From Mesorhizobium sp. WSM3626 (lineage in GTDB: Bacteria > Pseudomonadota > Alphaproteobacteria > Rhizobiales > Rhizobiaceae): a stretch of 64,000 bases of DNA. The notes under the pieces are model-generated. The model searched no databases, was not told the DNA's origin, and worked only from the letters and a program-made list of their open reading frames with translations. A program made the position numbers and the translations under genes. Where the stretch lies: contig NZ_AZUY01000006.1 in the NCBI RefSeq assembly GCF_000513935.1, positions 122,134 through 186,133 on the forward strand, written 5' to 3'. Shown piece by piece: positions 4,803 through 28,142 of the stretch (its first letter is position 1; each line of letters starts with the position of its first letter).

Positions 4803-5929
4803 TGCGCCTCGAACTCGTCAAACGCCCGCAGCGCTCGGCGCTGTTTTCGATGCTGTCGCCGTTCATCGCCTTCGCGCTGACCATCATCGCCGGAGCCATT
4901 ATGTTCGCGCTGCTCGGCGTCAACCCGCTCAACGCATTCAAGATCTATTTCATCGAGCCGATCAGCCAGGTCTGGCAATTGCATGAGCTGGCAATCAAGG
5001 CCGCGCCGCTGATCCTGATCGCTGTCGGCTTGTCGGTCTGCTACAAGGCCAACATCTGGAACATCGGCGCCGAAGGCCAGTTCATCTTCGGCGCAATCTT
5101 CGGCTCCATCATTCCCGTGCTGTTTCCGCAATTCGAGGGCCCGCTGGTGCTGCCGCTGATGCTTCTGCTCGGTATGGTCGGCGGTGCGGCCTACGCGGCG
5201 ATCCCGGCCTTGCTGAAGACCCGGTTCAATACCAACGAGATCCTGACCAGCCTGATGCTGGTCTATGTCGCGCAGCTGTTCCTCGACTGGCTGGTGCGCG
5301 GTCCCTGGCGCGATCCGCAGGGACACGGCTTTCCGCAGACGATCCAGTTCGGCGACTCGGCCGTGCTGCCGGAGCTGATGCCCGATGCCGGGCGAGCCAA
5401 TTGGGGCTTCGTCTTCGCCCTGGTTGCGGCGGTGCTGATCTGGATCCTGATGGGCCGCATGCTCAAGGGTTTCGAGGTCCGCGTGCTGGGCTCCAGTCCG
5501 AGGGCAGGGCGGTTCGCCGGCTTCGGCCTGAACCGCATGGTATTCTTCGCCTTCCTGCTGTCGGGCGCGCTGGCCGGCCTTGCCGGCATCTCGGAAGTCT
5601 CCGGTGCCATTGGGCAACTGCAGCCCGTGATTTCGCCCGGCTATGGCTTCACCGCCATCATCGTGGCCTTCCTTGGCCGCCTCAATCCGCTCGGCATCGT
5701 CGCCGCGGGCCTGGTTCTGGCGCTGACCTATCTCGGCGGCGAGGCGGTGCAAAGCGCGCTCGGCATTTCCGACAAGGTGGCGAGGGTGTTCCAGGGCATG
5801 CTGCTGTTCTTCGTGCTCGGTTGCGACACGCTCATTCATTACCGCATCCGATTGATCGGCCTGGCGCTGACCAAACAGGAAGCCCCCGCGAAGCTCGAGG
5901 CCGCGCCAAAGTTGAAGGAAGCCCGCTGA
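4799..5929 (+). CDS. BMP-type ABC transporter permease 1
   Basis: This 376-residue inner-membrane permease belongs to the branched-chain/ribose permease-like family (BPD_transp_2) and corresponds to NupP/YufP. Conserved pieces include YKANIWNIGAEGQF near residues 80-93 and the FAGFGLNRM loop in the second half. The ATG at 4799 overlaps the ATPase stop in an ATGA arrangement, which implies translational coupling. It should pair with the following permease as a heterodimeric channel energised by the tandem ATPase upstream. Confidence 0.9.
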   Translation: MMRLELVKRPQRSALFSMLSPFIAFALTIIAGAIMFALLGVNPLNAFKIYFIEPISQVWQLHELAIKAAPLILIAVGLSVCYKANIWNIGAEGQFIFGAIFGSIIPVLFPQFEGPLVLPLMLLLGMVGGAAYAAIPALLKTRFNTNEILTSLMLVYVAQLFLDWLVRGPWRDPQGHGFPQTIQFGDSAVLPELMPDAGRANWGFVFALVAAVLIWILMGRMLKGFEVRVLGSSPRAGRFAGFGLNRMVFFAFLLSGALAGLAGISEVSGAIGQLQPVISPGYGFTAIIVAFLGRLNPLGIVAAGLVLALTYLGGEAVQSALGISDKVARVFQGMLLFFVLGCDTLIHYRIRLIGLALTKQEAPAKLEAAPKLKEAR

Positions 5930-6849
5930 TGGACATTACCGTCAACATCCTCCTGACCATCGCAACGGCGGCGACGCCGCTTTTGATCGCGGCGATCGGC
6001 GAATTGGTGGTCGAGCGCTCCGGCGTGCTCAATCTCGGTGTCGAAGGCATGATGGTCATGGGCGCCGTCGGCGGCTTCGGAGCCGGCTATCTGACCGGAT
6101 CTCCCTGGGTCGGCCTCCTGGCAGCGATCGCCGTGGGCGCGCTTTTCTCCCTGCTGTTCGCCGTCATGACGCTGTCGCTGGCCACCAACCAGGTGGCGAC
6201 CGGCCTGTCACTGACGCTGCTCGGGCTCGGCCTTTCCGGCATGATGGGAACGCGCTTCGTCGGCCAGCCTGGCGTCAGGCTGCCCAACCTCGACATTCCC
6301 GGCCTCAGCTCGATTCCGGTCGTGGGCAGGCTGCTCTTTGGCCAGGACCCTGTGTTCTACATTTCGATCGCGCTGACGGCCGCGGTAATGTGGTTCCTGT
6401 TCAAGACGCGTACCGGGCTGACGCTGCGTTCGATCGGCGACAGCCACACATCGGCGCATGCGCTCGGCATCAAAGTCATCCGCTACCGCTACCTGGCGGT
6501 CATCTTCGGCGGCGCCTGCGCCGGTCTTGCCGGCGGGCATCTGTCGCTGGTCTACACGCCGCAGTGGGTCGAGAACATGTCCGCCGGCCGCGGCTGGATC
6601 GCGCTCGCACTGGTGGTGTTCGCATCCTGGCGGCCGTGGCGGGTGCTGGCCGGCGCCTATATCTTCGGCGCGGTCTGGATCGGCCAGCTTCATGCACAGG
6701 CTTTTGGCATTCCGGTGCCCTCGCAGATGCTTTCTTCTCTGCCCTATCTGGCAACCGTCGTGGTTCTCGTTCTAATCTCGCGCAACAAGCGTCTGACGAT
6801 GATGAACACGCCGGCCTCCCTGGGGCAGCCATTCGTTCCGGATCGTTGA
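5929..6849 (+). CDS. BMP-type ABC transporter permease 2
   Basis: The second permease has 306 residues and corresponds to NupQ/YufQ. The motif GELVVERSGVLNLGVEGMM (residues 24-42) is the hallmark of this subunit. About eight membrane segments are predictable by eye. Its start overlaps the stop of permease 1 by one base (TGATG). The paired permease-1 and permease-2 forms, with a lipoprotein-like BMP binding protein, are the standard composition of this importer class. Confidence 0.9.
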   Translation: MDITVNILLTIATAATPLLIAAIGELVVERSGVLNLGVEGMMVMGAVGGFGAGYLTGSPWVGLLAAIAVGALFSLLFAVMTLSLATNQVATGLSLTLLGLGLSGMMGTRFVGQPGVRLPNLDIPGLSSIPVVGRLLFGQDPVFYISIALTAAVMWFLFKTRTGLTLRSIGDSHTSAHALGIKVIRYRYLAVIFGGACAGLAGGHLSLVYTPQWVENMSAGRGWIALALVVFASWRPWRVLAGAYIFGAVWIGQLHAQAFGIPVPSQMLSSLPYLATVVVLVLISRNKRLTMMNTPASLGQPFVPDR

Positions 6850-6900
6850 CAACAACAAAAAGACGGGAAGCTCCAAGGCTTAACACAGAGAGGTAACACA

Positions 6901-7968
6901 ATGAAAAAACTGCTTATTGCCCTGATGACGACGACAGCGGCTTTGTCGCTGGCGGCGTCGGCAGAGGCCGCCGACAAGTTGAAGGCCTGCTGGGTCTATA
7001 CCGGCCCGATCGGCGATTTCGGCTATTCCTACCAGCACGACCAGGGCCGTCTCGAGGTCGAGAAAGCGCTCGGCGACAAGGTCGAAACCGCCTATCTGGA
7101 GAACGTCTCCGAAGGTCCCGACGCCGACCGGGCTTTCGAGCGTCTGGCGCGCGAAGGCTGCAAGATCATCTTCGGCACCTCGTTCGGTTTCATGGACGCC
7201 GAAGTGAAGGTCGCCAAGAAGTTTCCCAAGGTGATGTTCGAGCACGCCACCGGATACAAGACGGGGGACAATCTCGGCATCTACAATGCGCGCTTCTATG
7301 AAGGCCGCTACGTGCTCGGCCAGATCGCCGCCAAGGAATCGAAGTCCGGCGTCGCCGGCTACATCGTCTCCTTCCCGATCCCCGAAGTGGTGATGGGCAT
7401 CAACTCCTTCATGCTCGGCGCGCAATCGATCAATCCGAACTTCAAGGCCAAGATCGTCTGGGTGAACTCGTGGTTCGATCCGGGCAAGGAAGCCGACGCC
7501 GCCAAGGCTCTGTTCGACCAGGGCGCCGACATCATCGTCCAGCACACCGACTCGACCGCTGCGCTGCAGGTGGCCGAAGAGCGCAAGCTGCACGGCTTCG
7601 GCCAGTCGTCCGACATGATCAAGTTCGCGCCGAACGCGCAGCTGACCTCGCTGACCGACGAGTGGGGCCCTTATTATATCAGCCGCGTGCAGGCAGCCAT
7701 CGACGGCTCCTGGAAGCCGGACAATGTCTGGCTCGGCATCAAGGACGGCGCGGTCAAGCTCGCGCCCTACACCAACATGCCTGATGACGTGAAGGCGATG
7801 GCCGAAGCGACCGAAAAGAAGATCGCCGGCGGCTGGAATCCCTTCACCGGACCGATCGCAAAGCAGGACGGCTCGGCATGGCTGAAGGACGGCGAGGTCG
7901 CCGACGACGGCACGCTGCTCGGCATGAATTTCTACGTCAAGGGCGTCGACGACAAGCTGCCGCAATAA
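6901..7968 (+). CDS. BMP family ABC transporter substrate-binding protein
   Basis: This periplasmic binding protein has 355 residues and a typical Sec signal peptide (MKKLLIALM, hydrophobic core, cleavage after AEA near residue 23). The mature part begins with a conserved stretch around WVYTGPIGDFGYSYQHD, typical of the BMP/PnrA-like family that binds purine nucleosides and related ligands. There is no lipobox Cys, so it is probably soluble in the periplasm. GAGAGG stands before the ATG. It is the last gene of the importer operon and is followed by a strong hairpin-T-tract terminator. Confidence 0.92.
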   Translation: MKKLLIALMTTTAALSLAASAEAADKLKACWVYTGPIGDFGYSYQHDQGRLEVEKALGDKVETAYLENVSEGPDADRAFERLAREGCKIIFGTSFGFMDAEVKVAKKFPKVMFEHATGYKTGDNLGIYNARFYEGRYVLGQIAAKESKSGVAGYIVSFPIPEVVMGINSFMLGAQSINPNFKAKIVWVNSWFDPGKEADAAKALFDQGADIIVQHTDSTAALQVAEERKLHGFGQSSDMIKFAPNAQLTSLTDEWGPYYISRVQAAIDGSWKPDNVWLGIKDGAVKLAPYTNMPDDVKAMAEATEKKIAGGWNPFTGPIAKQDGSAWLKDGEVADDGTLLGMNFYVKGVDDKLPQ

Positions 7969-17442: not shown

Positions 17443-17456
17443 TGGCGGAGGGAGTG
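17443..17456. repeat. Left attachment-site core (14 bp)
   Basis: TGGCGGAGGGAGTG is identical to 28053-28066, the 3' end of tRNA-Ser including CCA, read on the opposite strand. Here it stands outside any tRNA gene, as the displaced copy left at the far end after integration. Confidence 0.85.
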
Positions 17457-17520
17457 ACCGTCTATCTAATCTATACATCATATTGATATCATTTATCATT
17501 CATAACGCCAGTGCGACAAA

Positions 17521-17540
17521 ATACCCGTAAAAGTACCCGG
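17521..17540. repeat. TACCCG motifs near the left end (2 copies)
   Basis: TACCCG occurs at 17522-17527 and 17534-17539, 12 bases apart, within an AT-rich stretch between the left att core and alpA. The same motif with the same 12-base spacing recurs next to the right end. Likely arm-type integrase sites or AlpA/excisionase operators (inference). Confidence 0.5.
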
Positions 17541-17545
17541 CTCGA

Positions 17546-17755
17546 TTATGCGGCTTTTTGGACGGGCAGCCCTGTGATCCATGCGAGGATTTCCGACTCA
17601 AGCCATCGCACACAGGCTTCGCTCAAGACACGCGGCCGAGGGAAGGATTCGGCATCCATCTTACGATAGATCGTGCTACTCCCGAGACTCGTCATCCGCA
17701 TGACTTCTTTGAGCTTCAGCAGGCGATCGGGCAGATTGTCGTTGTCAGCGTGCAT
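17546..17755 (-). CDS. alpA: AlpA family phage/satellite transcriptional regulator
   Basis: This 69-residue helix-turn-helix protein starts MHADNDNLPDRLLKLKEV. The segment RMTSLGSSTIYRKMDAESFP, residues about 19-38, is the AlpA (CP4-57 regulator) motif, and the C-terminal part RWLESEILAWI completes the domain. I chose the ATG at 17755 because GGAGGA lies six bases upstream. In P4-like elements and satellites AlpA-type proteins control integrase/excision and mobilisation genes. Here it is the last gene of the element, 55 bases after the capsid operon and on the same strand, rather than next to int, which is unusual. Confidence 0.85.
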   Translation of the reverse strand: MHADNDNLPDRLLKLKEVMRMTSLGSSTIYRKMDAESFPRPRVLSEACVRWLESEILAWITGLPVQKAA

Positions 17756-17810
17756 TGTCTTCCTCCGTTGAGCAGGCCGCCCGCCCATTACGGGCAGACG
17801 GCAAGATGCA

Positions 17811-18353
17811 TCAAAGCCCAGCCTGGTCCATAGTTTCCGAAACGGCAGGGCTGACGCCAAGAAAAGCGTGTAAGCCTGCCGCATCGTCTACTGGGTCAAG
17901 GTGCTCGTTCATGCGGGCAATCTCGCACTCCGCTTCCGCAATGACTTCATCGATCGGCTGGCCGTTTGCCGTGCCGATCTTGAAGGTTGCCGGAAACACA
18001 CGTCGCTCAATCTTGCCTGCCTTCGCATCGGCTATGGCCTCGACGCGGGTCTTTTTCGCCGGAGCCGGCAGTTTGCCGCCCATCCGCTCATACATGTCCA
18101 ACAGCTTCTCCTTGAGGTCAGTTGCGAAAGCGCCCTTATGCAGCCATTGGATCACCGGCTGACCGCCTTGCACGGTTGCGAATGGCGCCATGGCTACGTA
18201 GCCACGGTCAGCCGACCATGACAGCACCACGCCTTTGATGTTCGTGTGCAGTTCAGGAACGTAGATGTCGGCATATGCAAGCTTGGTGAAGGCCCGCTTG
18301 CCGTCGTCGTTCTGGAAGAATGTCATGCCGCGAATTTCGGTATTGAAGGTCAT
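17811..18353 (-). CDS. Unknown satellite protein at the end of the head operon
   Basis: I do not recognise this 180-residue protein. It starts MTFNTEIRGMTFF; the N-terminal half is mixed beta-like (IYVPELHTNIKGVVLSW), followed by a helical, charged part with LKEKLLDMYERMGG and KKTRVEAIADAKAGKI. Its ATG overlaps the adaptor stop by four bases, so it is co-translated with the head genes. It could be a minor head or size-determining protein, or a factor that directs helper proteins. That is inference from position only. Confidence 0.75.
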   Translation of the reverse strand: MTFNTEIRGMTFFQNDDGKRAFTKLAYADIYVPELHTNIKGVVLSWSADRGYVAMAPFATVQGGQPVIQWLHKGAFATDLKEKLLDMYERMGGKLPAPAKKTRVEAIADAKAGKIERRVFPATFKIGTANGQPIDEVIAEAECEIARMNEHLDPVDDAAGLHAFLGVSPAVSETMDQAGL

Positions 18354-18685
18354 GTTGCGACTCCGCTTTCCACGAGGAGGTCGATATAGTCGCCTCGCTC
18401 GGCCTTAATGATTGATCTGATGTTGAATGCTGTTCCGGCACGCGCATCAAGCGCGCGCCAGTCTGTCGTCACGACGGCCACAGGGCCGCCATTGCGGATC
18501 GTGATGACGATGGGCTGCACGCCCGTTAGCCGAGCGGAGAGGACTTCCTCGCTTCCCTTGAGGTAGCGGATCCTGGCAGGCACAGTAGCGACGTCGAACC
18601 AATCGCTAATGGTATTTCCATGCCCGTCGTCCATCTCCACGAAGTCTTGCAGAGTCACCAGTTCGCGAAGCTGACCGGCGCTCAT
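18350..18685 (-). CDS. Phage head-tail adaptor (head closure, SPP1 gp16-like)
   Basis: This 111-residue protein starts MSAGQLRELVTLQDF and matches the head-closure family (Phage_H_T_join): N-terminal LRELVTLQD, central VPARIRYLKGSEEVLSARL and a C-terminal beta-rich part. In tailed phages it sits under the connector and presents the site to which the tail binds. In a satellite without tail genes it is the part that must accept helper tails. It overlaps the portal gene by four bases. Confidence 0.85.
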   Translation of the reverse strand: MSAGQLRELVTLQDFVEMDDGHGNTISDWFDVATVPARIRYLKGSEEVLSARLTGVQPIVITIRNGGPVAVVTTDWRALDARAGTAFNIRSIIKAERGDYIDLLVESGVAT

Positions 18686-19908
18686 GCCGCCGCCTCATCG
18701 ATCTTCGCCTTGTTGTCATTCGCGCCGACTAGCCCCATGTTCAAGGCTTGGACGAACTGGTCCCCATCCGGGATCTTCGACATGTTCTCCATCGACCTGA
18801 TCTCGTTGGTGGACAACCAGCCGCCTTCGCGGCCGACGCGGTATGCGTTGTACCTGTCAACCAAACTGCCATGGAGCAATCCGTCCAAGTCATGCTCGAT
18901 GAAGAGCGACTTTCGGCTTTCCGGCGACAGCAGGGCCACGTTCATTGTCTGCTCGATACGCTTTGCCCATGGCTGCAAGCAGCGCTGAACCAAGGCTCGG
19001 CTTTCACCCTCGACATTCGAGTATGTGGCCTGATCAACAATGCCGGCTGCGGTAGGCGGCACGCCAAAGATGCGGCAAACATCAAGGTTGGAAAGCTGAC
19101 GGCTAGCCAGGAATTCCGAATCCTTGCTGTTGAAGCTGATGTTGGACCATGTGGCGCCGCCGTCCAGTACTAGGGGCTGATTTGCCTTAAGCGAGCCGAT
19201 CAGCCTGTTCTGGAATTTGGTGATAATGTCTTCCTTGCCAGCGCCGGAAAGCTTGTCTGGAAACGTTAACAGACCGCTTGGGCGGAAGGCATTTTCTGCG
19301 GCGGAACCGGCTTGCTCCTGTTGCGAAAGCGCAAGCCCAAAGGTCGCCGCAGCGATCGAGATTGGTGACTGACCGAGGAAGCCGGTCGTTCGGTCGAGCC
19401 TGTATCTCAAGTGCAAGATTTCGTCGGCTAGCAAGGTCTCCGTGCTAGCGACCGTGATCGGACTAACACGATATCGCAACCTACCGGATGCAAGCTGTTC
19501 GACGGAGACCCTGCTTGCCGGGATCGGATGCAACGCCGCGACCTGGCCGCGACCGTTACGCTCTATCTTGGCAAAGGCATTACCGAAGAGAAGACACGAA
19601 ACGATCAGTGCCTCGCGAGCCTCGTAGGCGGTAAGCAGGGACGAGGACTGCGACTGTAGGACGTCATGCAACGGATGGTCCGTTGCGGGCTCACGGCCTC
19701 CGTCTGCCGTCTTGCGGTACAGGACGAGCGGCACGCTGGCGAGGTTTTCCGCAATGACCGAAATACAGCGATGGGCCACGGCATGGCCCGCCGCCGCCTC
19801 AGGGCTAATAGGCGTGCCGGTAGCCGAATAGTACGTCGTGCCTTGGAGGAGATCCCATGAGGTCAGGTCTCGGGTCTCCGTCTTCTTTCCGAAAGGCCAC
19901 CAGTTCAT
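18682..19908 (-). CDS. HK97 family phage portal protein
   Basis: This 408-residue portal subunit forms the ring at the capsid vertex through which DNA enters. Diagnostic pieces are AVAHRCISVIAENLASVPL near residues 43-61, FGNAFAKIERN near 108-118, and the C-terminal wing/crown part FGVPPTAAGI...YSNVEGESRALVQRCLQPW. Full family length. ATGA overlaps on both sides (protease upstream, adaptor downstream) indicate strict co-translation. In HK97-type phages the portal gene precedes protease and capsid; here it follows them. Confidence 0.92.
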   Translation of the reverse strand: MNWWPFGKKTETRDLTSWDLLQGTTYYSATGTPISPEAAAGHAVAHRCISVIAENLASVPLVLYRKTADGGREPATDHPLHDVLQSQSSSLLTAYEAREALIVSCLLFGNAFAKIERNGRGQVAALHPIPASRVSVEQLASGRLRYRVSPITVASTETLLADEILHLRYRLDRTTGFLGQSPISIAAATFGLALSQQEQAGSAAENAFRPSGLLTFPDKLSGAGKEDIITKFQNRLIGSLKANQPLVLDGGATWSNISFNSKDSEFLASRQLSNLDVCRIFGVPPTAAGIVDQATYSNVEGESRALVQRCLQPWAKRIEQTMNVALLSPESRKSLFIEHDLDGLLHGSLVDRYNAYRVGREGGWLSTNEIRSMENMSKIPDGDQFVQALNMGLVGANDNKAKIDEAAA

Positions 19909-20435
19909 CGTGCGGCCTCCAGGTCGAGAAGCGCAATCCGGCGATCGGCGGTCGTGCGCGTAGCGGGCCGGGAACGGGCCTGCACGCTTGTGCCGCTGTA
20001 GGCTGGGAATGACTGGACAACGCTAATCTCGTGCAGTGTCACGGCTCTAAGCTCGCGCTTGTCGCCGCTCCAGACTTCGCCGCTGGCTTCGACCGTGAAG
20101 CCAAAGGATGCGCCGCCAAGATCGCCACGAGCGGCAAGGGCGAGAACGTCGCGGCCTGCCGATGTGTCGGGGATGTCTAGTTCGAAAGCGAGTCCGCGCT
20201 CATTTTCGGAAAGGCGCAGCGAACCGCTGCGCGTCCTCGCAAGCACCTTGCCGGAATCGTGGTCGACCAGGGCCAGAATGTCCTTGCCGCTTGCCAGGCT
20301 CGCCGCGAACGCACCGCGTTTGATCACTTCCCGGAAGTCGGTAATCCGAGTCTCTTGGTCGAAGACCGCGGCAAAACCGACCAGTTTCCGACCTTCGGCG
20401 CGAACCTCATGGGCCGCGCGAGTTTCCATTGTCAT
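19905..20435 (-). CDS. HK97 family prohead protease
   Basis: This 176-residue capsid maturation protease removes the scaffolding delta domain of the capsid protein during head assembly. The order GFAAVFDQET, then the His-bearing LVDHDS near residues 56-61, then the Ser-bearing GASFGF near 111-116, matches the catalytic centre of the U35 family. A C-terminal tail rich in Arg follows. It lies between the connector and portal genes with 4-base overlaps. Confidence 0.9.
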   Translation of the reverse strand: MTMETRAAHEVRAEGRKLVGFAAVFDQETRITDFREVIKRGAFAASLASGKDILALVDHDSGKVLARTRSGSLRLSENERGLAFELDIPDTSAGRDVLALAARGDLGGASFGFTVEASGEVWSGDKRELRAVTLHEISVVQSFPAYSGTSVQARSRPATRTTADRRIALLDLEAAR

Positions 20436-20710
20436 ATCGTTTGCTCCCTAAACGGTTGCAGCAAAGCGTCTACGCCGTAGGCAATCGCCTTCGGTGGTGC
20501 CTCGGTCGCTGCATCTCGGTTTGAGTACCAGTGGCTCACAAGTAGCAAAATGGCGTGCCTGACGGGCGCCTGAACCGGGGTGGCAAACGCCACCCCGATC
20601 TCGGTCACATACCCTTCGGCCGCCTCTAGAAGCGAGGTCACATAATCGTCGTCACTATCGAATGTGACGCGCAAATGTGCCTTGCCTTCCGCAAGGCTAA
20701 CCGCGGTCAT
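20432..20710 (-). CDS. Phage head-tail connector (gp6-like)
   Basis: This 92-residue protein begins with SLAEGKAHLRVTFDSDDDY (residues 5-23) and AEGYVTEIG, the pattern of HK97 gp6/YqbG-like connectors (Phage_connect_1), which form a ring under the portal. A segment VRHAILLLVSHWYSNRD follows. It overlaps the capsid gene by one base and the protease gene by four. Confidence 0.87.
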   Translation of the reverse strand: MTAVSLAEGKAHLRVTFDSDDDYVTSLLEAAEGYVTEIGVAFATPVQAPVRHAILLLVSHWYSNRDAATEAPPKAIAYGVDALLQPFREQTI

Positions 20711-21972
20711 TATGCGGTCAGCATGTCTTTGATGGCAGCGAACGACTCGGCGTGGCGCACGGCCACATCGACGTCCTTCATAGCGCGGACCATAACCCGA
20801 CCCTTGGCGTAAGCCGTTGTTTCATACGGATTAACCAGAATGTCTGTTCCCGAATAGTTGGCGATAATCAGGTCGGCGAAATTGCCGAAGATCAGGGCCG
20901 AAGCAACCGCGCCCGACGTGCCCTTGACCAGGTTGGACGGCACCAGATTGGTGCTGGCCAGCACATAGCCAGCGAGCGAGCCGGGTGCTTCCTGCAGCAT
21001 CACGGAGTCGGTTGCCGAAACCTTCTGGGTGCCGCGCATTTTCTTGACCGCCTTGGGGTTGGTCAGGAAGGCGCTGCCTTCGGCGTTGGCAGTTTCGAGC
21101 GCGGCAATCAGGTCCAGAATCGACTGCCAGGTCGGTACGGCGCCGTTGGTGCCTAGCGCCACGGAACCGATACCCGACGTGCTCAGGATACCGGTCGGCG
21201 TGTTTGACGTGCCGTCGCCGGCAATGGCCTTGTCGTCAATCGCGTTGGCAATCACAGCGGCCAGGTCGTTGCGGACCAGCTGCTCGATGGCAGGAACGGC
21301 GTTGATGAGGGTGCGGCGGCTAAACGACGTCATTGCGCCAACCGTCTTCGGCGCCAAGTTCACGTCATCGAAGGCGGCATCCGTTTCGGTGAGCGAGCCG
21401 TCTTCGGCAACCCACTGGCCGGTGCTAGAGCCGGTCTGGCGCGGGATGTCGACGTTGCCGACGAGACCGTCCAGAACAGTTGCGCCCAGCCTGCCGACAA
21501 CGAGCTTGGCCCGCAGGCGATCGATGAAGAGGTCGGCCCGGTGCACGTTCGGAATCAGGTCGGCAGCGGACGAGCCAGCAAGCAGGGTGCGCCGCTCGAG
21601 GAATACCTCGTCCGGAACTGCGATGCCCTGAAATTTGCGGCCGGAACGCTTGGCAACTTCCTGCGACATTTCCCGCTCAAAGCCGGCGTCGACGTTATCG
21701 CCGATGGCGGCAGAGATGGCCTTTGTGATCGAGAAGCCGCGAGCGCGTTCCTCGTACTGGCCGTCACCGATATTGTCGGACGACACGATGGCGGGCGCGG
21801 CACGCTCGAAGTCGGCCAGCGTCTTGGCGCGCCCAATCTGCTTATCGAGATCGCGAACTTCGGTTTCGAGCGCATCGAACTTCCCGGCCTTATCGCCGGT
21901 CAGGTCGTTGCCAAGAGCCTTCATATCGACTACCTTGGCGGCACGCTGTTCCTGAAGTGTATGAACGTTCAT
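20710..21972 (-). CDS. HK97 family major capsid protein
   Basis: This 420-residue capsid subunit has the full HK97 layout. The N-terminal delta (scaffold) region, about residues 1-100, is coiled-coil-like (ALETEVRDLDKQI), and the shell part has GQWVAEDGSLTETDAAFDDV near residue 190 and the AGDGTSNTPTGILS segment near 250. The protease encoded two genes downstream should remove the delta domain. It is the first gene of a six- to seven-gene operon read from a leader with a near-consensus promoter. The ATG at 21972 has a weak AAAGGA site upstream. Confidence 0.93.
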   Translation of the reverse strand: MNVHTLQEQRAAKVVDMKALGNDLTGDKAGKFDALETEVRDLDKQIGRAKTLADFERAAPAIVSSDNIGDGQYEERARGFSITKAISAAIGDNVDAGFEREMSQEVAKRSGRKFQGIAVPDEVFLERRTLLAGSSAADLIPNVHRADLFIDRLRAKLVVGRLGATVLDGLVGNVDIPRQTGSSTGQWVAEDGSLTETDAAFDDVNLAPKTVGAMTSFSRRTLINAVPAIEQLVRNDLAAVIANAIDDKAIAGDGTSNTPTGILSTSGIGSVALGTNGAVPTWQSILDLIAALETANAEGSAFLTNPKAVKKMRGTQKVSATDSVMLQEAPGSLAGYVLASTNLVPSNLVKGTSGAVASALIFGNFADLIIANYSGTDILVNPYETTAYAKGRVMVRAMKDVDVAVRHAESFAAIKDMLTA

Positions 21973-22053
21973 GTAATGTTTGTCCTTTCGAGACAGTTGG
22001 TAGAAATGAGGGGTTCGCGGTCGTTTCCTAGGCCACCGCGGCCCCTTTGCTTT

Positions 22054-22071
22054 CCCGTAGGTACCTACGGG
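22054..22071. repeat. 18-bp perfect palindrome in the capsid leader
   Basis: CCCGTAGGTACCTACGGG is a perfect 18-bp palindrome about 82 bases upstream of the capsid start. It is followed by TTTT on the plus strand. It could be an operator for a dimeric regulator, part of an RNA switch, or an arm of a packaging site. Confidence 0.8.
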
Positions 22072-22072
22072 T

Positions 22073-22093
22073 TTTCCGGCCTAACGCCGGAAA
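22073..22093. repeat. Stem-loop next to the palindrome
   Basis: An 8-bp stem TTTCCGGC/GCCGGAAA closes a CTAAC loop, directly adjoining the 18-bp palindrome. The two hairpins together form a structured block in the capsid leader. Confidence 0.7.
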
Positions 22094-22296
22094 CACGAAT
22101 AGCCCGCACGGCTGATGCCGGCAGGCTGAAAACTTTTAGGATTTTGAAGCGCCTCCCAGCGCGAGCCTTGTGGCTCTATTCATTCCGGCGCCCCTGTTGC
22201 CGGCTTCTATATCTTCCACGCTTTTCGCGCGGTGCTTGTGAGCGGCCTCGACCGCTACCTGAAGATGCCGAATCGGTATCCGACCTTCAAAAAGTT

Positions 22297-22326
22297 ATTA
22301 TAGCACGTTTCCGCTTAGAAAGTCAA
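22297..22326 (-). promoter_or_regulatory. Sigma-70 promoter for the capsid operon
   Basis: On the minus strand TTGACT (22326-22321) and TATAAT (22302-22297) are separated by 18 bases. This is close to the Escherichia coli consensus and unusual for a GC-rich alphaproteobacterium. It points at the capsid gene about 320 bases downstream. Confidence 0.7.
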
Positions 22327-22545
22327 TATGTAGTGGGTCGGTTTTCTAAAGAATCTACATCTAGTGGCTGCGAATCGCTCAGAAAACCCGATCTGACAAT
22401 AGGATCGCAAATCATTGCGGCTTTTTTAGGTCCGAAGCACAAGATATGCGAATTTTTCTCGCCACCACCACTATATATAGAGTTGAGCCGCATAATCGGC
22501 AAGGAGCAGCCACGCAGGAGCAGGCGCCGCCGCATGGCTGCATAG

Positions 22546-22851
22546 CTATTTCTTCGGCCAGCCTTTCTCGTCATAGCCGCCGTCTAGGTAACTGCGGAGT
22601 GAGGTGAGCGCTGGACCGAAGCCGGAATAGGGCGAGGGCATTTCTTCCCGTACGTCACGCGTGAACCATCCCAGCCCCTGCTTCAGGCGCCCTAGCGTTT
22701 TCATGATCGCCTTGTCTGCGGAATGGTAGCGTTCAAAGTGCGATTCCAGCCGATAGTAATGGTCCCAAGCTTTGTCGATTTCTTCAATAGAGCGACCTTG
22801 AACCATGCCGTTTCGCAAGGCGTCAATTTCGGCTTTAGTTTCTTCATTCAT
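22546..22851 (-). CDS. Unknown 101-residue protein after the large terminase
   Basis: No family is recognised. The protein starts MNEETKAEIDALRNG, is highly charged and looks mostly helical, with aromatic residues in DKAWDHYYRLESHFERYH (about 31-48). I chose the ATG at 22851 with GGGGAA upstream; it begins 17 bases after the terminase stop. Position next to TerL and small size make it a candidate for the missing small terminase or another packaging factor, but no helix-turn-helix is obvious. Treat this as a guess. Confidence 0.65.
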   Translation of the reverse strand: MNEETKAEIDALRNGMVQGRSIEEIDKAWDHYYRLESHFERYHSADKAIMKTLGRLKQGLGWFTRDVREEMPSPYSGFGPALTSLRSYLDGGYDEKGWPKK

Positions 22852-22868
22852 AGTGCTTCCCCTGTTCT

Positions 22869-24476
22869 CTAAGCCGCCATAAGACACGCCGGCAAGCTAT
22901 CATTCTCGTGCCGCCGCGCAATTCCGAGCGCGATTGTCATCGCCACTAGGCCATCGATTTTTTCTCGCGACCTGTCTTTATCGAGCTTGCGGTTTCCAGC
23001 GGCGTCACGGCTCACCGCCGCGTTTGCCGCATTCCATGTCATGACCGGGTGGTCGCCGTGCCGCAGCTTGCCGGATATCAGCAAGGTTTCCATGTAGTCG
23101 AGCGAGGGCGAAATATCGCGGTAGCCCTGGCCGAACTCGACAAGATTGACACTGATGTCGTCGTCGGCCAGGTCGCGCTGCAAATCCTTAATGCGCCAGC
23201 GGTCGAACCCGATCGCCTGCACATCGTACGTCTGCACAAGCTCGCCCATACGGTGCGAGATGAACGAATAGTCCGTTGCGGCGCCCGGCGTAGGCTCTAT
23301 GAAGCCGTCCTTAGCCCATGAGAAATAGGGCACGCGGTCGGTGTCTTCCCGCTCGAGAAGGTTGTCGCCAGGACACCAAAAGAACGGCAACACGTCGAAG
23401 CCGCCTTCGTCGTCGGGAAAGACGAGCGTCAGGCAGCTAAGGTCGCGCGTTGAACCAAGATCCAAACCGCCATAGCAGCGCCGTCCGGCAAGCCCGGCAA
23501 CGTCGACCTTGCCGCCGCACGCCTTCCATTCGGCAGCCCGTATAAACCGCTCCTGCGCCTCTACGCGGCGATTGAGGCGGAGGTTCAAGAACCGCGGCAG
23601 GAAGGACGCCATGCGCTTGGCGCGCTCCGCTTGTGCCCGGAATTCGGTTTCGTCTAGGAAGATGCCCCAAGCCGGGTTGCACGCCTTCCACACTTCCTCA
23701 TCGAACGGATCAGCGTCATCCGGTGCGCATATCAACTGGCAATAGACGGTCGGGTCTTCGCCCCGCAGAGCATCGTCTATCATCACGGAAAGCGGATGGT
23801 GGTCGTTGGCCGCTTGCGTCGAAATGACGATGCCAAGGCTCTCTTTGCGCTTGCCTTGCGCGGTCTGCAGGTTGTGCAGCAGCTCGTCCGTCTTGGCCTG
23901 CGCAAATTCGTCGTAGGTCCAGAGGGAGGGCGCCAAGCCGTGACCACGGCGGACATCTGCCGACAGGGACTCGTAAAGCGAGCCCTTGCCGTCGCCGTCC
24001 AGAACCTCAATCCGCTTGTGGAAACGCTGGCAGTTCGTGCGCTCCTCGAACTCAGGCACAGCGGAGATTATGGCTTCCATCTCTCGATACAGGAGACCGG
24101 CTTGCTGCTTATCGATGGCTGCGCTGTAGATTTCGCCGCGCGGTTCGCTCTCCGGGCCAAGCAGATGGGCAAGATTTATTCCTGCTAGGAAACCGGTCTT
24201 TCCCCCGCCGCGTGGCTGACTCTGAATTGCCAGCCGCACTTTGCGCCGACCGTCTTCATCGACATTGCCGTACACATTATCGATGAATTCGATCTGTTCC
24301 GGCAGCAATTTCATAGTCTGGCCGGCCAGGATGCCCTTAGTGATGGGCAGGAACTCCATGAAGGCGACCAGCCGCTCGACGCGGGTGAGGTTGGGCGCCA
24401 TCCATGGCAGATCACGGGCCGGTGCCGATATGATGGATTTGCCCTTAGCGCGGGCGCCAGGTCCACGCAGGCCCAT
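22869..24476 (-). CDS. Phage terminase large subunit
   Basis: This 535-residue packaging motor belongs to the HK97-type terminase family (Terminase_1). It has an ATPase P-loop variant QPRGGGKT near residues 92-99, a Walker B-like LWTYDEF near 190-196, and the nuclease domain starting GLDLGST near residue 343 with a later acidic DGLVAM segment. Length is normal and the frame intact. The ATG at 24476 overlaps the HNH stop by one base. No recognisable small terminase precedes it; in related phages TerS lies between HNH and TerL. Confidence 0.92.
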   Translation of the reverse strand: MGLRGPGARAKGKSIISAPARDLPWMAPNLTRVERLVAFMEFLPITKGILAGQTMKLLPEQIEFIDNVYGNVDEDGRRKVRLAIQSQPRGGGKTGFLAGINLAHLLGPESEPRGEIYSAAIDKQQAGLLYREMEAIISAVPEFEERTNCQRFHKRIEVLDGDGKGSLYESLSADVRRGHGLAPSLWTYDEFAQAKTDELLHNLQTAQGKRKESLGIVISTQAANDHHPLSVMIDDALRGEDPTVYCQLICAPDDADPFDEEVWKACNPAWGIFLDETEFRAQAERAKRMASFLPRFLNLRLNRRVEAQERFIRAAEWKACGGKVDVAGLAGRRCYGGLDLGSTRDLSCLTLVFPDDEGGFDVLPFFWCPGDNLLEREDTDRVPYFSWAKDGFIEPTPGAATDYSFISHRMGELVQTYDVQAIGFDRWRIKDLQRDLADDDISVNLVEFGQGYRDISPSLDYMETLLISGKLRHGDHPVMTWNAANAAVSRDAAGNRKLDKDRSREKIDGLVAMTIALGIARRHENDSLPACLMAA

Positions 24477-24883
24477 TAGACAAACTCCCAATTGGTTTCA
24501 GGTGAAACTAATTCTTTCTTTGTGGGGCACGGCGGTCCCCGGCCGGTCGAACCTGGCGATGCGAAGCCCCCAGGCGCCCACCAGTCGTCTTCATCGTCCA
24601 GCGGGTTGCCCTCGACGTCGCAGCCCTTGAAGCGCGAGCCGCCTTTGCTATCCGCGCTATCGACGCGCCGTGTCTTGCTGTTGTGGCACGGCAAGCACAG
24701 GCTCATGAGTCGGTCGATCGGCGGGAACGGATCCCCGCCTTTCTCGATTGCAACAACATGGTCGACGGCAATGGCAGGCTCGATCACTTCCCGCCGTACG
24801 CACGCCTCGCACAATGGGTCAGTCGATAGCTTGGCTTGCCGCAAGCGCTGCCATGCGGCGGTGTTGTAAGGCCAACGGCTCAT
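24476..24883 (-). CDS. HNH endonuclease (packaging-associated)
   Basis: This 135-residue HNH nuclease has CEAC near residues 25-28, then VDHVVAIEKGGDP near 40-52 and LCLPCHNSKT near 62-71, giving the two Cys pairs and the His/Asn core. The C-terminal tail is Gly/Pro-rich. In HK97-like phages and capsid-forming satellites such an HNH protein works with the large terminase in cutting DNA at cos sites. It overlaps the RepA-like gene by four bases and terL by one. Confidence 0.88.
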   Translation of the reverse strand: MSRWPYNTAAWQRLRQAKLSTDPLCEACVRREVIEPAIAVDHVVAIEKGGDPFPPIDRLMSLCLPCHNSKTRRVDSADSKGGSRFKGCDVEGNPLDDEDDWWAPGGFASPGSTGRGPPCPTKKELVSPETNWEFV

Positions 24884-26376
24884 GCTGCCCTCCGCAGGAA
24901 GGTGGGCACGCAATCGGGGACTTCACTCTCTAGTGTTCCCCCCTCAGAGTCCTCAGACTCCTCAGTCTTAGTACCCATAGGAGGATAGTGTGAGGATGAA
25001 GACTGAGGGGTCATAGGAGTCTGAGGGGTTGAGACATAGGAGCCGTAACCTTGCTTCTCGGCTTCGCCGGCCGCGACCATCTTGCGGAGCAGATAGTTGA
25101 CGTTGGGCAGCTTCATGCCGGTTGCCGTGACGATCTCGGCTGGAGTCATCGGGCCACTGGCTGCGGCCAGAGCTTCCATGATCTGCTTGCGCTCGCCGGA
25201 ACGCTTCACATCATCGACGTCGCCAAGCACAGACCAGCGCCCACCGTCGAACTTCAACGCCTTCTCAACTTCCTCCACGTCACGTCCGCGACCGTAGAGT
25301 TTCGGGCCGTCTGTGGTGCGATTGAGGATCATGATGGAGTCCGCCGCGCCGGTTAATCCGTTCGTGCCGGATATCATTTCAAGGGGATCTTCCGCTTCGG
25401 CCTTCCTGACGTGGGTCACGACCACCACGGCAAGCCGATGTTCGCTGGCGAACCGCTGCAATGGCGAAAGCGCCTCGTAGTCCGCCGCATAACTGTCTTG
25501 GTTCTTGCCTTTGGGCGGCCGCACAATCGCCAGCGTGTCCACGATGATAAGGCGCGGGTCAGGCACGGATTGCCGCCATTTGTCGAGCATCTCAATCAAT
25601 CCGGCCCCGATCTTGGGCGCTTCGGTCAGCAGGGAAAGGCGCGACATATCCGGACGCTTGAACCTCGGTAGCACCACGCGAAGCCGGTCCTGCAAACGAC
25701 GCTGGTTATCTTCCAATGCCAAATACAAAGCGTCGCCTTGTTCGCACTCCGCACCTAGCGACCGCCCGCCGCTGGCAACGGCAACGCCGAAGTCTAGGGC
25801 CAGCCAGGACTTGCCGAGCTTCGGCCTGCCGCCAAGCAGTGTAAGACCTTCCGCCACATAGCCGGGTATGACGTATTTGATGGGCGCGAATTCCATGCCG
25901 AGCAGCGTTTCCGCGTCGATCGATGCGAACTTGGGCTTGTTGTCGTTTGCGGCCTTCCGCGGCTCTGGCGCGGCTTCAACCGTGACTGTCTTACGTGCTG
26001 GGGCCTCCGTCTGTTCGGCCCTTAGATCGCGGGCCACCATGCGGATGGCAACGGCATGGTCATGGGCAGGACCGGAGAGTGCTGCAATAATCGCACTGCC
26101 GGTTTCGCCATCGAGGTACATGAACGCGGCTGTATCGCCATCGCATTCCGGAATATCGGAGACAAGCACGCACCACCGCATGGCCTCGTCAATGTCTGCG
26201 GGATCGGTTTCGGCACGCTGGAACTTGTCCGCGGTCAGCGTGTGGTCTTCCCAGCCGACATCTGCGGGCCGCACCTTGACTGTGCCTTTGGCTTTGGCTG
26301 CGCTGGTGTAGAAGAAATCGCCCAATCGGGCAGTGTCGCCGGCCTGGATAAGGTCGAGTAGGGTTTCACGCTGCAT
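24880..26376 (-). CDS. RepA-like AAA family ATPase (replicative helicase)
   Basis: This 498-residue protein has a RecA-like ATPase core: GGRPKLGKSW (Walker A) near residues 182-191, LALEDNQRRLQ near 220-230 and LIIVDTLAIV (Walker B) near 274-283. This is the RepA/RSF1010-type hexameric helicase family (AAA_25). The N-terminal 150 residues resemble the PriCT-like part of phage primase-helicases but contain no primase motif. The last third has a winged-helix-like region and a low-complexity Ser/Thr/Glu tail. It probably drives replication of the excised element. The ATG at 26376 has GGAG seven bases upstream. Confidence 0.85.
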   Translation of the reverse strand: MQRETLLDLIQAGDTARLGDFFYTSAAKAKGTVKVRPADVGWEDHTLTADKFQRAETDPADIDEAMRWCVLVSDIPECDGDTAAFMYLDGETGSAIIAALSGPAHDHAVAIRMVARDLRAEQTEAPARKTVTVEAAPEPRKAANDNKPKFASIDAETLLGMEFAPIKYVIPGYVAEGLTLLGGRPKLGKSWLALDFGVAVASGGRSLGAECEQGDALYLALEDNQRRLQDRLRVVLPRFKRPDMSRLSLLTEAPKIGAGLIEMLDKWRQSVPDPRLIIVDTLAIVRPPKGKNQDSYAADYEALSPLQRFASEHRLAVVVVTHVRKAEAEDPLEMISGTNGLTGAADSIMILNRTTDGPKLYGRGRDVEEVEKALKFDGGRWSVLGDVDDVKRSGERKQIMEALAAASGPMTPAEIVTATGMKLPNVNYLLRKMVAAGEAEKQGYGSYVSTPQTPMTPQSSSSHYPPMGTKTEESEDSEGGTLESEVPDCVPTFLRRAA

Positions 26377-26620
26377 TACGGACTCCGGAATTAGCACTCG
26401 CAAGGGCTGCGCCAGCGGCGCGCGTTAAGGAGTCGGCCAAGGCCGGGGCGAAGGTGGCGACGTTGGCGCCGAAGGCATGGGGGGCATGAACTCGCCGCCC
26501 GCGTGGGCCTTCAATGAGTTTCACATTGTAGAGGCGAAGCTCTGGGGTTAGCTGCACGTCGAACCGTGCAAGGGTGCTGCCGGAACCCGGAGGTTCGAGG
26601 CGGATATCAATGATATGCAA
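26366..26620 (-). CDS. SpoVG-like small phage protein
   Basis: This 84-residue protein starts IIDIRLEPPG after the first two residues, continues with ARFDVQLTPELRLYNVKLI and ends in an Ala-rich helix. The arrangement resembles short phage proteins related to SpoVG septation-regulator homologues, which bind nucleic acid; this is a weak match by eye. The only plausible start is TTG at 26620 with GGAG six bases upstream. It overlaps the helicase gene by 11 bases and lies 25 bases after int. Confidence 0.6.
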   Translation of the reverse strand: MHIIDIRLEPPGSGSTLARFDVQLTPELRLYNVKLIEGPRGRRVHAPHAFGANVATFAPALADSLTRAAGAALASANSGVRNAA

Positions 26621-26645
26621 TATATGCTCCGTTTCGTGATTTGAT

Positions 26646-27881
26646 TTACCGTCTAGGCCCGCTCAAAAGCTCTCGGGCCGGTCTTGCTCCCTCAAGAATG
26701 AGGTCGGCCCATAGCTGGGCAAGTTCCCGTCGCCGCTCTAAATGCAGCGCGCGGTTATAGGCGCCTTCCACCTTGTCTTTCGGAACGTGCGCCAACATGA
26801 GGTCGATAACGGGCTTGTCGGCCCGAAACCGCTCATTCATCACTGACGAGAATGTCGCTCGCCAGCCGTGCGGGACGTGCTTGTGATGATACCCGGCCCG
26901 ATTGAGCAAATACCCGATTGCGTTCTCACTCATGGGCTTGTGCGCATGGCGGGTGTTGGGGAAGGCAAGCGGGCCGCGTCCCGATATCGTGCGAAGCGCT
27001 GCGATTGCATCCACCGCTTGCCGCGACAGCGGCACTAGATGGTCGCGGGCTTCGTCTTCCTTATGCTGAAGTCGCATTTTCATGCGTTCGGCGGGTATCT
27101 GCCAAAGGTCAACGCCAACGGGCCACTCCGCCCAAGGCGTCGTCGCAAGCGTGCCGGGGCGAATGGCGGTTAGCGCAAGGATCCGAAGCGCAAGCTTCGT
27201 CACCGGGTGTGCCGTCTCGGCCTCCGCCTTCACGAGCATTTCGCGGGCCTTGTCCAAGTCGGTTATGGCGGGCTGCTTGCCTTTCTTCATTGGCGCCATT
27301 GCGCCTTTGACGATCGCGGCAGGGTCGTTTTCCGCCCGGCCAGAAGCGATGGCGTAGACGAAGATTGCCGACATGCGCTGGCGGATACGGCGTGCCGTTT
27401 CTTTCGCTTCCCGCTTCTCGACAACGCGAAGCAAAGCCAACACCTCCGCCGCGGTAATATCCTTGATCGGAACATCGCCAAAGGTGGGGAATACGTCGCG
27501 CTCTAGACTGACCAGCACGTCGTGCGCGTGCCGTTCCGCCCACTGCGGCTTTTGCAGTTCGTACCATTCGCGGCCGATCGCCTCGAAGGTGTTAGCCGTG
27601 CTTGTGACGTGCGCCAGCTTCCGGAGCTTCTTGGCGATGCCAGGATCGCGCCCGGCCCGGATGGTGGCCTTGGCCTCGTCACGAGCCGAACGAGCATCAA
27701 TGAGCGAAACTACCGGGTACGCGCCAAGTGAAAGAAGCTTTTCCTTCCCGCCAAATTCGTACCGGAAGCGCCAAAGCTTCCCGCCCGCCACGCTGACAAA
27801 CAGGTGTAGTCCACCGCCATCTGCGAGTTTGTAGGGTTTGTCCGCTTTCTTCGCGTTCCTGCATTGCGTGTCTGTGAGCAT
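26646..27881 (-). CDS. int: P4-type tyrosine integrase
   Basis: This 411-residue site-specific recombinase inserts and excises the element. The N-terminal DUF4102 arm-binding domain is seen in LADGGGLHLFVSVAGGKLWRF-like sequence (about 18-38). The catalytic domain has Arg in ALTAIRPG, the HGWRATF box (HxxR), His in LMLAHV and the Tyr in EGAYNRAL. The ATG at 27881 has AGGGGA upstream; the frame continues through the tRNA by chance and earlier starts are rejected. It lies next to the tRNA-Ser gene, the usual place for integrases of this family. Confidence 0.95.
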   Translation of the reverse strand: MLTDTQCRNAKKADKPYKLADGGGLHLFVSVAGGKLWRFRYEFGGKEKLLSLGAYPVVSLIDARSARDEAKATIRAGRDPGIAKKLRKLAHVTSTANTFEAIGREWYELQKPQWAERHAHDVLVSLERDVFPTFGDVPIKDITAAEVLALLRVVEKREAKETARRIRQRMSAIFVYAIASGRAENDPAAIVKGAMAPMKKGKQPAITDLDKAREMLVKAEAETAHPVTKLALRILALTAIRPGTLATTPWAEWPVGVDLWQIPAERMKMRLQHKEDEARDHLVPLSRQAVDAIAALRTISGRGPLAFPNTRHAHKPMSENAIGYLLNRAGYHHKHVPHGWRATFSSVMNERFRADKPVIDLMLAHVPKDKVEGAYNRALHLERRRELAQLWADLILEGARPARELLSGPRR

Positions 27882-27898
27882 GTTGCTTTCCCCTTGAA

Positions 27899-27951
27899 AT
27901 ACCCGGTTCAAAGGGAACATACCCGGTTTCATACCCGACTTCCACCGGGTA
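27899..27951. repeat. TACCCG motif cluster near the right end
   Basis: TACCCG occurs at 27900-27905, 27920-27925 and 27932-27937, and in inverted form near 27946-27951, between the int start and the att core. Two copies have the same 12-base spacing as the pair at the left end. Likely integrase arm sites or regulator operators (inference). Confidence 0.55.
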
Positions 27952-27982
27952 GGTGCGGCAGGGTTTGGCAAAGCATGGGAAC

Positions 27983-28012
27983 GGAATACCGCAATATTCC
28001 TCGCCTTTTCAA
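27983..28012 (-). promoter_or_regulatory. Possible int promoter with an overlapping dyad
   Basis: On the minus strand TTGAAA (28012-28007) and TATTCC (27988-27983) are 18 bases apart, about 100 bases before int. The -10 element overlaps an inverted repeat GGAATA/TATTCC (27983-28000) that could be an operator. The -10 match is weak. Confidence 0.35.
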
Positions 28013-28052
28013 GGCATTGCGGCAATGTATGGGTACGTATGGGAAAGGTAAT

Positions 28053-28066
28053 TGGCGGAGGGAGTG
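28053..28066. repeat. Right attachment-site core (14 bp)
   Basis: Identical to 17443-17456. It covers the end of the T arm, the 3' acceptor strand, the discriminator base and CCA of tRNA-Ser, so integration recreates an intact tRNA gene. Confidence 0.85.
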
Positions 28067-28142
28067 GGATTCGAACCCACGGTGAACTTGCGCCCACGCC
28101 GGTTTTCAAGACCGGTGCCTTAAACCGCTCGGCCATCCCTCC
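28053..28142 (-). tRNA. serT: tRNA-Ser (anticodon TGA)
   Basis: This 90-base serine tRNA, read on the minus strand, has a 7-bp acceptor stem GGAGGGA/TCCCTCC, the D-arm start TGGCCGAGCGG, the anticodon loop CTTGAAA with anticodon TGA, a long variable arm typical of serine, a T loop GTTCGAATC and an encoded CCA. Its 3' end is the attachment site of the satellite-like element. Confidence 0.95.

Follow-up and report, generated by a model that had tools for sequence, protein, structure and literature searches.

The DNA analysed here is a stretch of 64,000 nucleotides from Mesorhizobium sp. WSM3626 (contig NZ_AZUY01000006.1, positions 122,134 to 186,133), hereafter the window, which carries an integrated element at positions 17443 to 28066. 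The element encodes its own head and packaging machinery but no tail gene that could be recognised, and is very probably a capsid-forming phage satellite that would dock tails made by a helper phage, a reading to which we give a probability of roughly 0.86. We infer that its capsid is small and that its tails are borrowed.

Ends and gene content of the element

The element is bounded by two exact direct copies of the 14-bp repeat TGGCGGAGGGAGTG, at 17443-17456 and 28053-28066, which enclose 10,610 bp and set exactly the limits (17443..28066) proposed in an earlier note made from the sequence alone. The second copy is the 3' end of a called tRNA-Ser(TGA) gene (28053-28142, minus strand), the integration target, and the distal copy matches it exactly; the same 14 bp also bound a related element, L144 (loci carry our own L numbers). 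The chance of a second exact 14-mer copy no more than 14 kb away was 0.11%, as estimated from 20,000 random 14-mers of the window. An integrase and an att-bounded insertion, a trait of the capsid-forming phage-inducible chromosomal islands (cf-PICIs), are both present.

Thirteen open reading frames (ORFs) fill the element, all on the minus strand, open throughout and mostly overlapping. The description of the genes in the earlier note as full-length, on one strand and mostly overlapping holds except for a gap of 0.57 kb that precedes the capsid gene, the main break in this overlap, and its gene list (integrase, AlpA, helicase, HNH, TerL, capsid, connector, protease, portal and head-tail adaptor) is supported by Pfam and PHROGs. 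Reading from the tRNA end, the first gene encodes a tyrosine integrase (26646..27881; PF22022, PF13356 and PF00589) that is 87% identical in L144, followed by p84 (26366..26620; 74% identical in L035) and an AAA_25 (RepA-like) helicase with a C-terminal helix-turn-helix (HTH), likely to serve replication (24880..26376; PF13481, 4.3e-28). In this helicase Pfam recognised AAA_25 and HTH and no primase domain, and the PHROGs named polymerase or primase match it only at residues 108-359, mostly the helicase part. An HNH endonuclease (24476..24889; PF01844, 5.6e-7; phrog_2323, 4.9e-23) adjoins the terminase large subunit TerL (22869..24491; PF20441, 1.4e-33; PF03354, 1.4e-9; phrog_9, 1.7e-123), and p113 (22546..22887) comes next. 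The head genes then run from the HK97-type major capsid protein (20710..21972; PF05065, 1.2e-41), the only PF05065 capsid in the genome, through the gp6-like head-tail connector Ad1 (20432..20710; PF05135, 2.3e-10; phrog_40), the S78 prohead protease (19905..20435; PF04586, 2.4e-39) and the portal protein (18682..19908; PF04860, 5.4e-93) to the head closure or head-completion protein Hc1 (18350..18685; PF05521, 4.6e-17; phrog_25, 2.5e-12). Last come p180 (17811..18353), with a predicted SpoVG-like N-terminal domain and a conserved C-terminal peptide, and a regulator or excisionase of the AlpA family, 69 aa from the ATG at 17755 (17546..17755, in an ORF extending to 17884; PF05930, 8.5e-16) and 80% identical in L144. 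This AlpA homologue, also a cf-PICI trait, lies at the end of the element far from the integrase.

The impression that nothing here serves tails, lysis or phage lysogeny stands, as 13 of 13 ORFs gave no match to tail, lysis or CI-type families in Pfam or PHROGs. With its own capsid, protease and portal, the element is unlike P4-like and canonical PICI satellites, which have no capsid of their own, and with no tail or lysis match it is unlike a complete siphophage as well. Three proteins (p84, p113 and p180) found no family in the Pfam and PHROGs scans, and short novel adsorption proteins are conceivable, so that one may think of a complete virus which needs no tail or forms an unrecognised one from these proteins. 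Such a virus seems to us highly improbable: blastp at 1e-3 gave p113 no counterpart in the five loci used for comparison (four relatives, since L179 and L144 carry the same element), the last codons of p113 being conserved in L035 DNA; the domain of p180 is predicted to be SpoVG-like and not structural; connector and head-closure proteins imply a tail; and no lysis gene was recognised. Separately, p180 was considered as a tail-docking protein, its position after head closure being suited to a tail terminator, and this was dropped on account of the predicted SpoVG-like domain. No usable match came from an HMM search of Pfam with p180 relatives or from a PDB search with their profile, and plain Foldseek with p180 gave nothing at E<=0.001.

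One size class at many tRNA and tmRNA sites

Nineteen loci with a tRNA or tmRNA were searched for a second, distant stretch identical to some portion of that gene, and in 15 of them a repeat of at least 13 bp derived from it bounds 10.1-11.5 kb; no distant copy was found for L150, L154, L067 and L095 (4/19). The bounded lengths are 10,610 bp in the window, 11,011 in L143, 11,527 in L144, 10,894 in L145, 10,095 in L149, 11,005 in L151, 11,081 in L152, 10,210 in L153, 10,944 in L159, 10,676 in L059, 10,102 in L060, 10,642 in L063, 10,468 in L064, 10,717 in L079 and 10,977 in L080. Three contigs are circular by terminal repeats of 125-141 bp (10,442, 10,874 and 9,805 bp), the length of which suggests assembly overlap. 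The 18 elements delimited in these two ways, the window's included, measure 9.8-11.5 kb (mean 10,671 bp, standard deviation 427), and the integration sites comprise tRNA-Ser, Arg, Gln, Ala, Asn, Gly, Glu and Pro as well as tmRNA. At E<=0.001, 2,165 of the candidates scored are homologues of the capsid protein. Among the best 120 of these, the longest contig was tabulated for 117 of 118 clusters, own excluded (the contig left out, of 2,842 bp, lies outside the bins compared): 26 fall in 10-11.2 kb versus 4 in 8.8-10 kb and 4 in 11.2-12.4 kb.

For tails, 88 unassigned ORFs of at least 60 aa were scanned from the 17 delimited elements other than the window's (88 of the 93 ORFs listed, from a simple gene caller that may have missed some). 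Among the 21 Pfam families recovered there was one tail match, the TMP_2 tape measure of L149. The earlier note had held that progressive loss of tail genes in related strains would speak against a satellite; these relatives, which are of species level, give no sign of it, with one size class and 1 tail match in 88 ORFs.

Ten genes have a match in L035 (integrase, p113 and AlpA have none), and their dN/dS values are 0.07-0.39, from a single pairwise comparison in which dS is saturated for protease and helicase. These values bear on whether the element is a decayed siphophage prophage that has lost its tail, lysis and control genes. Its head genes are homologous to those of HK97-type phages, TerL being 42% identical to the TerL of HK97, and the locus L156 hints at the existence of remnants within this family. 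Decay is nevertheless quite unlikely, because one size class occurs at many tRNA and tmRNA sites, dN/dS is well below 1 and phages are at most 42% identical among the matches listed. Gene order and size class are moreover conserved over the 18 delimited elements, integrase and att ends are intact, the capsid-protease-portal order differs from that of HK97, and no tailed close relative was found in the phage collection.

Relatives, gene order and apparent exchange of capsid genes

We studied 46 loci, the element itself included, found by scanning IMG/VR and a set of genomes with a single representative of each species. TerL lies upstream of the capsid gene in 38 of the 46, the protease downstream in 42, and protease and portal together downstream in 39. 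Some exceptions are only apparent, as the contigs are cut near the capsid gene (L061, L073, L083, L087, L094 and L097), circularly permuted (L039 and L096) or affected by a counting artefact of long open frames (L070 and L072). Conserved synteny and a search of phage collections had been proposed in the earlier note as checks; protease and portal follow the capsid gene in most loci (39/46), and the phages among the matches listed are at most 42% identical. Nineteen of 25 loci (L040-L058; 27-38% identical, L058 by a 35-residue match) lie outside the synteny and tail check, and some may be tailed phages. Among 20 regions fetched, L160-L162 have no capsid match, L157 and L158 have no tRNA and were not delimited, and L146 and L148 were left aside; L155 resembles a tailed prophage by its ORF layout only, and L147 has the order TerL-portal-capsid. 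By genome search, matches to the capsid profile occur in 13 of the 146 genomes from the genus (in three of them strong), in 37 of the 397 from the order and in 11 of the 337 from the class. Each count includes the window's own genome, and the many weak matches are probably ordinary phage capsids.

The same-genus relative L144, an element of 11.5 kb, occupies the same tRNA-Ser, shares the 14-bp att and contains no gene recognised as a tail gene. A full prophage with tails at this tRNA, which had been named as a contrary outcome, was not found, L144 being the only same-genus relative found there. Its integrase and TerL are 87% and 86% identical to those of the window and its capsid protein only 40%, whereas the window capsid is 55-62% identical to six genome loci (Pseudolabrys, Nitratireductor, Caulobacterales, Rhodoplanes, Reyranella and an unclassified Pseudomonadota), most of them from other bacterial families. 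The window portal groups with those of L143, L144 and L180 (support 99/95), and in the capsid tree these three stand apart from the window capsid, the deep forks being weak (82/34). Capsid genes thus appear to have been exchanged between satellite lineages, since at the same tRNA and att L144 combines a TerL of 86% identity with a capsid of 40%.

In the relatives L169 and L172, the orthologue of window 9.6-10.8 kb stops about 0.2-0.5 kb from the tRNA 3' end, and with host genes so close to the tRNA such an element is therefore absent there. A clean empty site was sought in both, and only 14-31 bp align at the tRNA end; the junction cannot be matched base for base because the window has a further 6.6 kb there (10.8-17.4 kb). 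This stretch of about 6.6 kb separates the conserved neighbour genes from the element; L169 and L172 lack it next to the tRNA, so that it may hold another insertion. In the species of L144, the tRNA-Ser and element are inverted relative to the same two chromosomal neighbours as in the window. In L074 and L075 (IMG/VR), at about 2.8-13.1 kb, an integrase-bearing satellite seems to have inserted into a different phage, between its terminase and portal genes; no flanking repeat of at least 11 bp was found in the stretches searched.

Nearest phages and origin of the head module

The best phage identities among the matches listed are 39% for the capsid (CRP-823), 42% for TerL (SaltyDalty, HK022 and HK97) and 36% for the portal; for the helicase, one of 7 phage records shows 38% identity across half of the protein, and no record of the phage collection is at least 60% identical among the matches listed. 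The head module is of HK97-type ancestry, judging by the TerL tree, since HK97-type phages sit among the satellites there (90/96, just under the star threshold of the program).

Among solved structures, the portal also matches 6tba, the Rcc01684 portal (4.9e-21), which we take to be that of the Rhodobacter gene transfer agent. This match would suit a head module that is domesticated or resembles a gene transfer agent and serves to package host DNA. We give that explanation hardly any credence, as the element keeps integrase, AlpA, helicase and att ends, none of which a host-locked agent should need, and its relatives occupy different sites in different hosts.

Several observations weigh against a capsid-forming satellite with borrowed tails. 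No separate small terminase subunit (TerS) was recognised among the 13 ORFs by Pfam or PHROGs; the HNH protein matches phrog_4581, annotated as small terminase, over its HNH part. L149 (genome G238), att-bounded at 10.1 kb, encodes a 780-aa tape measure at 5376-7715 and has no recognised TerL. In the tail scan by PHROGs, this tape measure was the only protein with tail families among the families listed (25 of 71 at 1e-3 and 25 of 31 at 1e-8). L149 may be a satellite that sets the length of a borrowed tail, and capsid-encoding satellites with tape-measure genes are mentioned in PMC10448857. Real departures from the common gene order are L065, where no TerL was found within 10 kb upstream, L080, where TerL is inverted, and L098, where none of the neighbours was recognised; L156, in which chromosomal genes directly follow integrase, portal, protease and capsid, is probably a remnant without TerL. 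The satellites do not form one clade in the TerL or capsid trees, and the selection estimates come from the one comparison with L035.

Comparison with known satellites and phages

As outlined in PMC10690885, cf-PICIs encode capsid, protease, portal, connectors, both terminases and HNH, use helper tails and are widely distributed across Bacteria. They average 14 kb, with hosts mainly in Enterobacteriaceae, Pasteurella, Morganellaceae and Firmicutes (PMC10803314); AlpA and the Pri-Rep replication initiator, a signature gene, are among their genes (PMC10448857), and their capsids form three clades (PMC11389934). Two records, Pmp8 (L032) and vB_KppS-Ant (L033), were compared by sequence, the cf-PICI label being our own for both. 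They share with the element integrase, HNH, TerL, capsid, protease, portal and connectors in capsid-protease-portal order; AlpA was found in Pmp8, and vB_KppS-Ant has an annotated transcriptional regulator. They differ in that Pmp8 is annotated with a tail terminator and vB_KppS-Ant with a tape measure, and in that their TerL and portal branch apart from the group of the window; the capsid tree covers capsids other than these two. The element is also shorter (10.6 kb versus the 14-kb average given in PMC10803314) and places HNH-TerL between integrase and helicase on one side and the capsid block on the other.

The cf-PICI-like satellite proposed in the earlier note is supported, with a refinement: integrase, AlpA, head genes, HNH and TerL and the lack of a tail match agree with it, and size, gene order and TerL and portal lineage differ from cf-PICIs. 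We call the element a distinct lineage of capsid-forming satellites that works like a cf-PICI, and not a proven member, because size, gene order and TerL and portal lineage differ and neither TerS nor a Pri-Rep or primase domain is recognised.

The HK97-type siphophages (HK97, HK022, SaltyDalty and PAJU2) share an HK97-type head and a TerL 40-42% identical; they differ in being tailed and 37-47 kb long. An HNH gene beside the terminase is common to the element, SaltyDalty (annotated) and HK97, in which HNH works with terminase at cos as stated in PMC10448857. The HK97 order is TerS-TerL-portal-protease-capsid followed by tails, unlike the element; PAJU2 has the capsid before the portal, and this order is therefore not unique to satellites. 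The Streptomyces satellites MulchRoom and MiniFlayer likewise have their own capsid and packaging genes, with a helper tail suggested for MulchRoom, but are actinobacterial, live at the expense of virulent phages and possess both TerS and a scaffolding protein, as described in PMC10690885, where no significant homology of the two to cf-PICIs is reported. Roseobacter and Rhodobacter phages (CRP-4xx/8xx and RcCronus) have capsids 31-39% identical, among the best phage matches listed, but are tailed and 29-36 kb long; their capsid genes are long and probably fused to the protease, and the gene order is TerL-portal-capsid.

Candidate helper and proposed life cycle

The same genome holds a Mu-like prophage (contig C85, about 61.7-98.5 kb; L192-L194) with Mu-type transposase, Mu portal, gpT head, tail terminator, tail tube, 961-aa tape measure, tail-tip proteins and lysozyme. 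Its tail families look siphophage-like (sheath was not searched for), and it is a plausible candidate for the tail donor. The Phage-tail_3 protein of this prophage has an Rcc01698-like C-terminal domain. Gene-transfer-agent tails in the host were also considered, and the PF13550 match concerned proved to lie in the Mu-like prophage. A search of the genome with PF10145 found nothing, which is weak evidence of absence because the prophage has a TMP_2 tape measure all the same.

In the life cycle that we propose, phage infection or induction would lead AlpA, perhaps with the SpoVG-like p180, to switch on integrase-mediated excision, and the AAA_25 protein would help to replicate the element. The capsid protein, protease and portal would build a small capsid of HK97 type, and HNH and TerL would cut the DNA and fill this capsid with roughly one unit of 10.6 kb. 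The connector and head-closure proteins would then accept a siphophage-type tail from the helper phage, which would also lyse the cell.

Non-coding blocks upstream of the capsid gene

A non-coding leader of 218 bp (21973..22190, minus strand), directly before the capsid gene, is conserved in a four-sequence alignment of relatives and can fold into stems, so that it is possibly structured. In this fold, derived from the same four sequences, 5 of 39 pairs are changed on both sides, a number as high in 4 of 500 shuffles, and sliding the partners by one column still gives 4 two-sided pairs; no Rfam family matches the leader. A second conserved non-coding block (22367..22450, minus strand), about 400-480 bp upstream of the capsid gene, contains the inverted repeat CGATC-n9-GATCG and is 80-84% identical by blastn in L144 and L143, and is found in L035 also. 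Their conservation is suggestive only, and both blocks could be control (operator) or packaging sites.

Significance of the element

Titles and abstract openings of open PMC papers describe no such elements in rhizobia; a prior description is possible, as PMC10690885 calls cf-PICIs widely distributed. We tentatively propose, at somewhat less than an even chance, that satellites of about 10.7 kb form a separate, unnamed capsid-forming class widespread in Alphaproteobacteria. Its members would package single units by HNH and TerL without a classical TerS, use varied tRNA and tmRNA sites, trade capsids and borrow the tails of siphophages resident in the cell, the Mu-like prophage for example, with one branch having its own tape measure. 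If rhizobia and their relatives harbour a satellite family whose genome size varies so little, tail piracy would reach bacteria of soils and plants as well. Such a family would offer a test of how capsid size is matched to genome length, of terminase action without a recognisable small subunit and of heads that accept the tails of unrelated (Mu-type) phages, and among the 10-11-kb phage contigs labelled 'partial' in viral databases, many may represent complete satellites.

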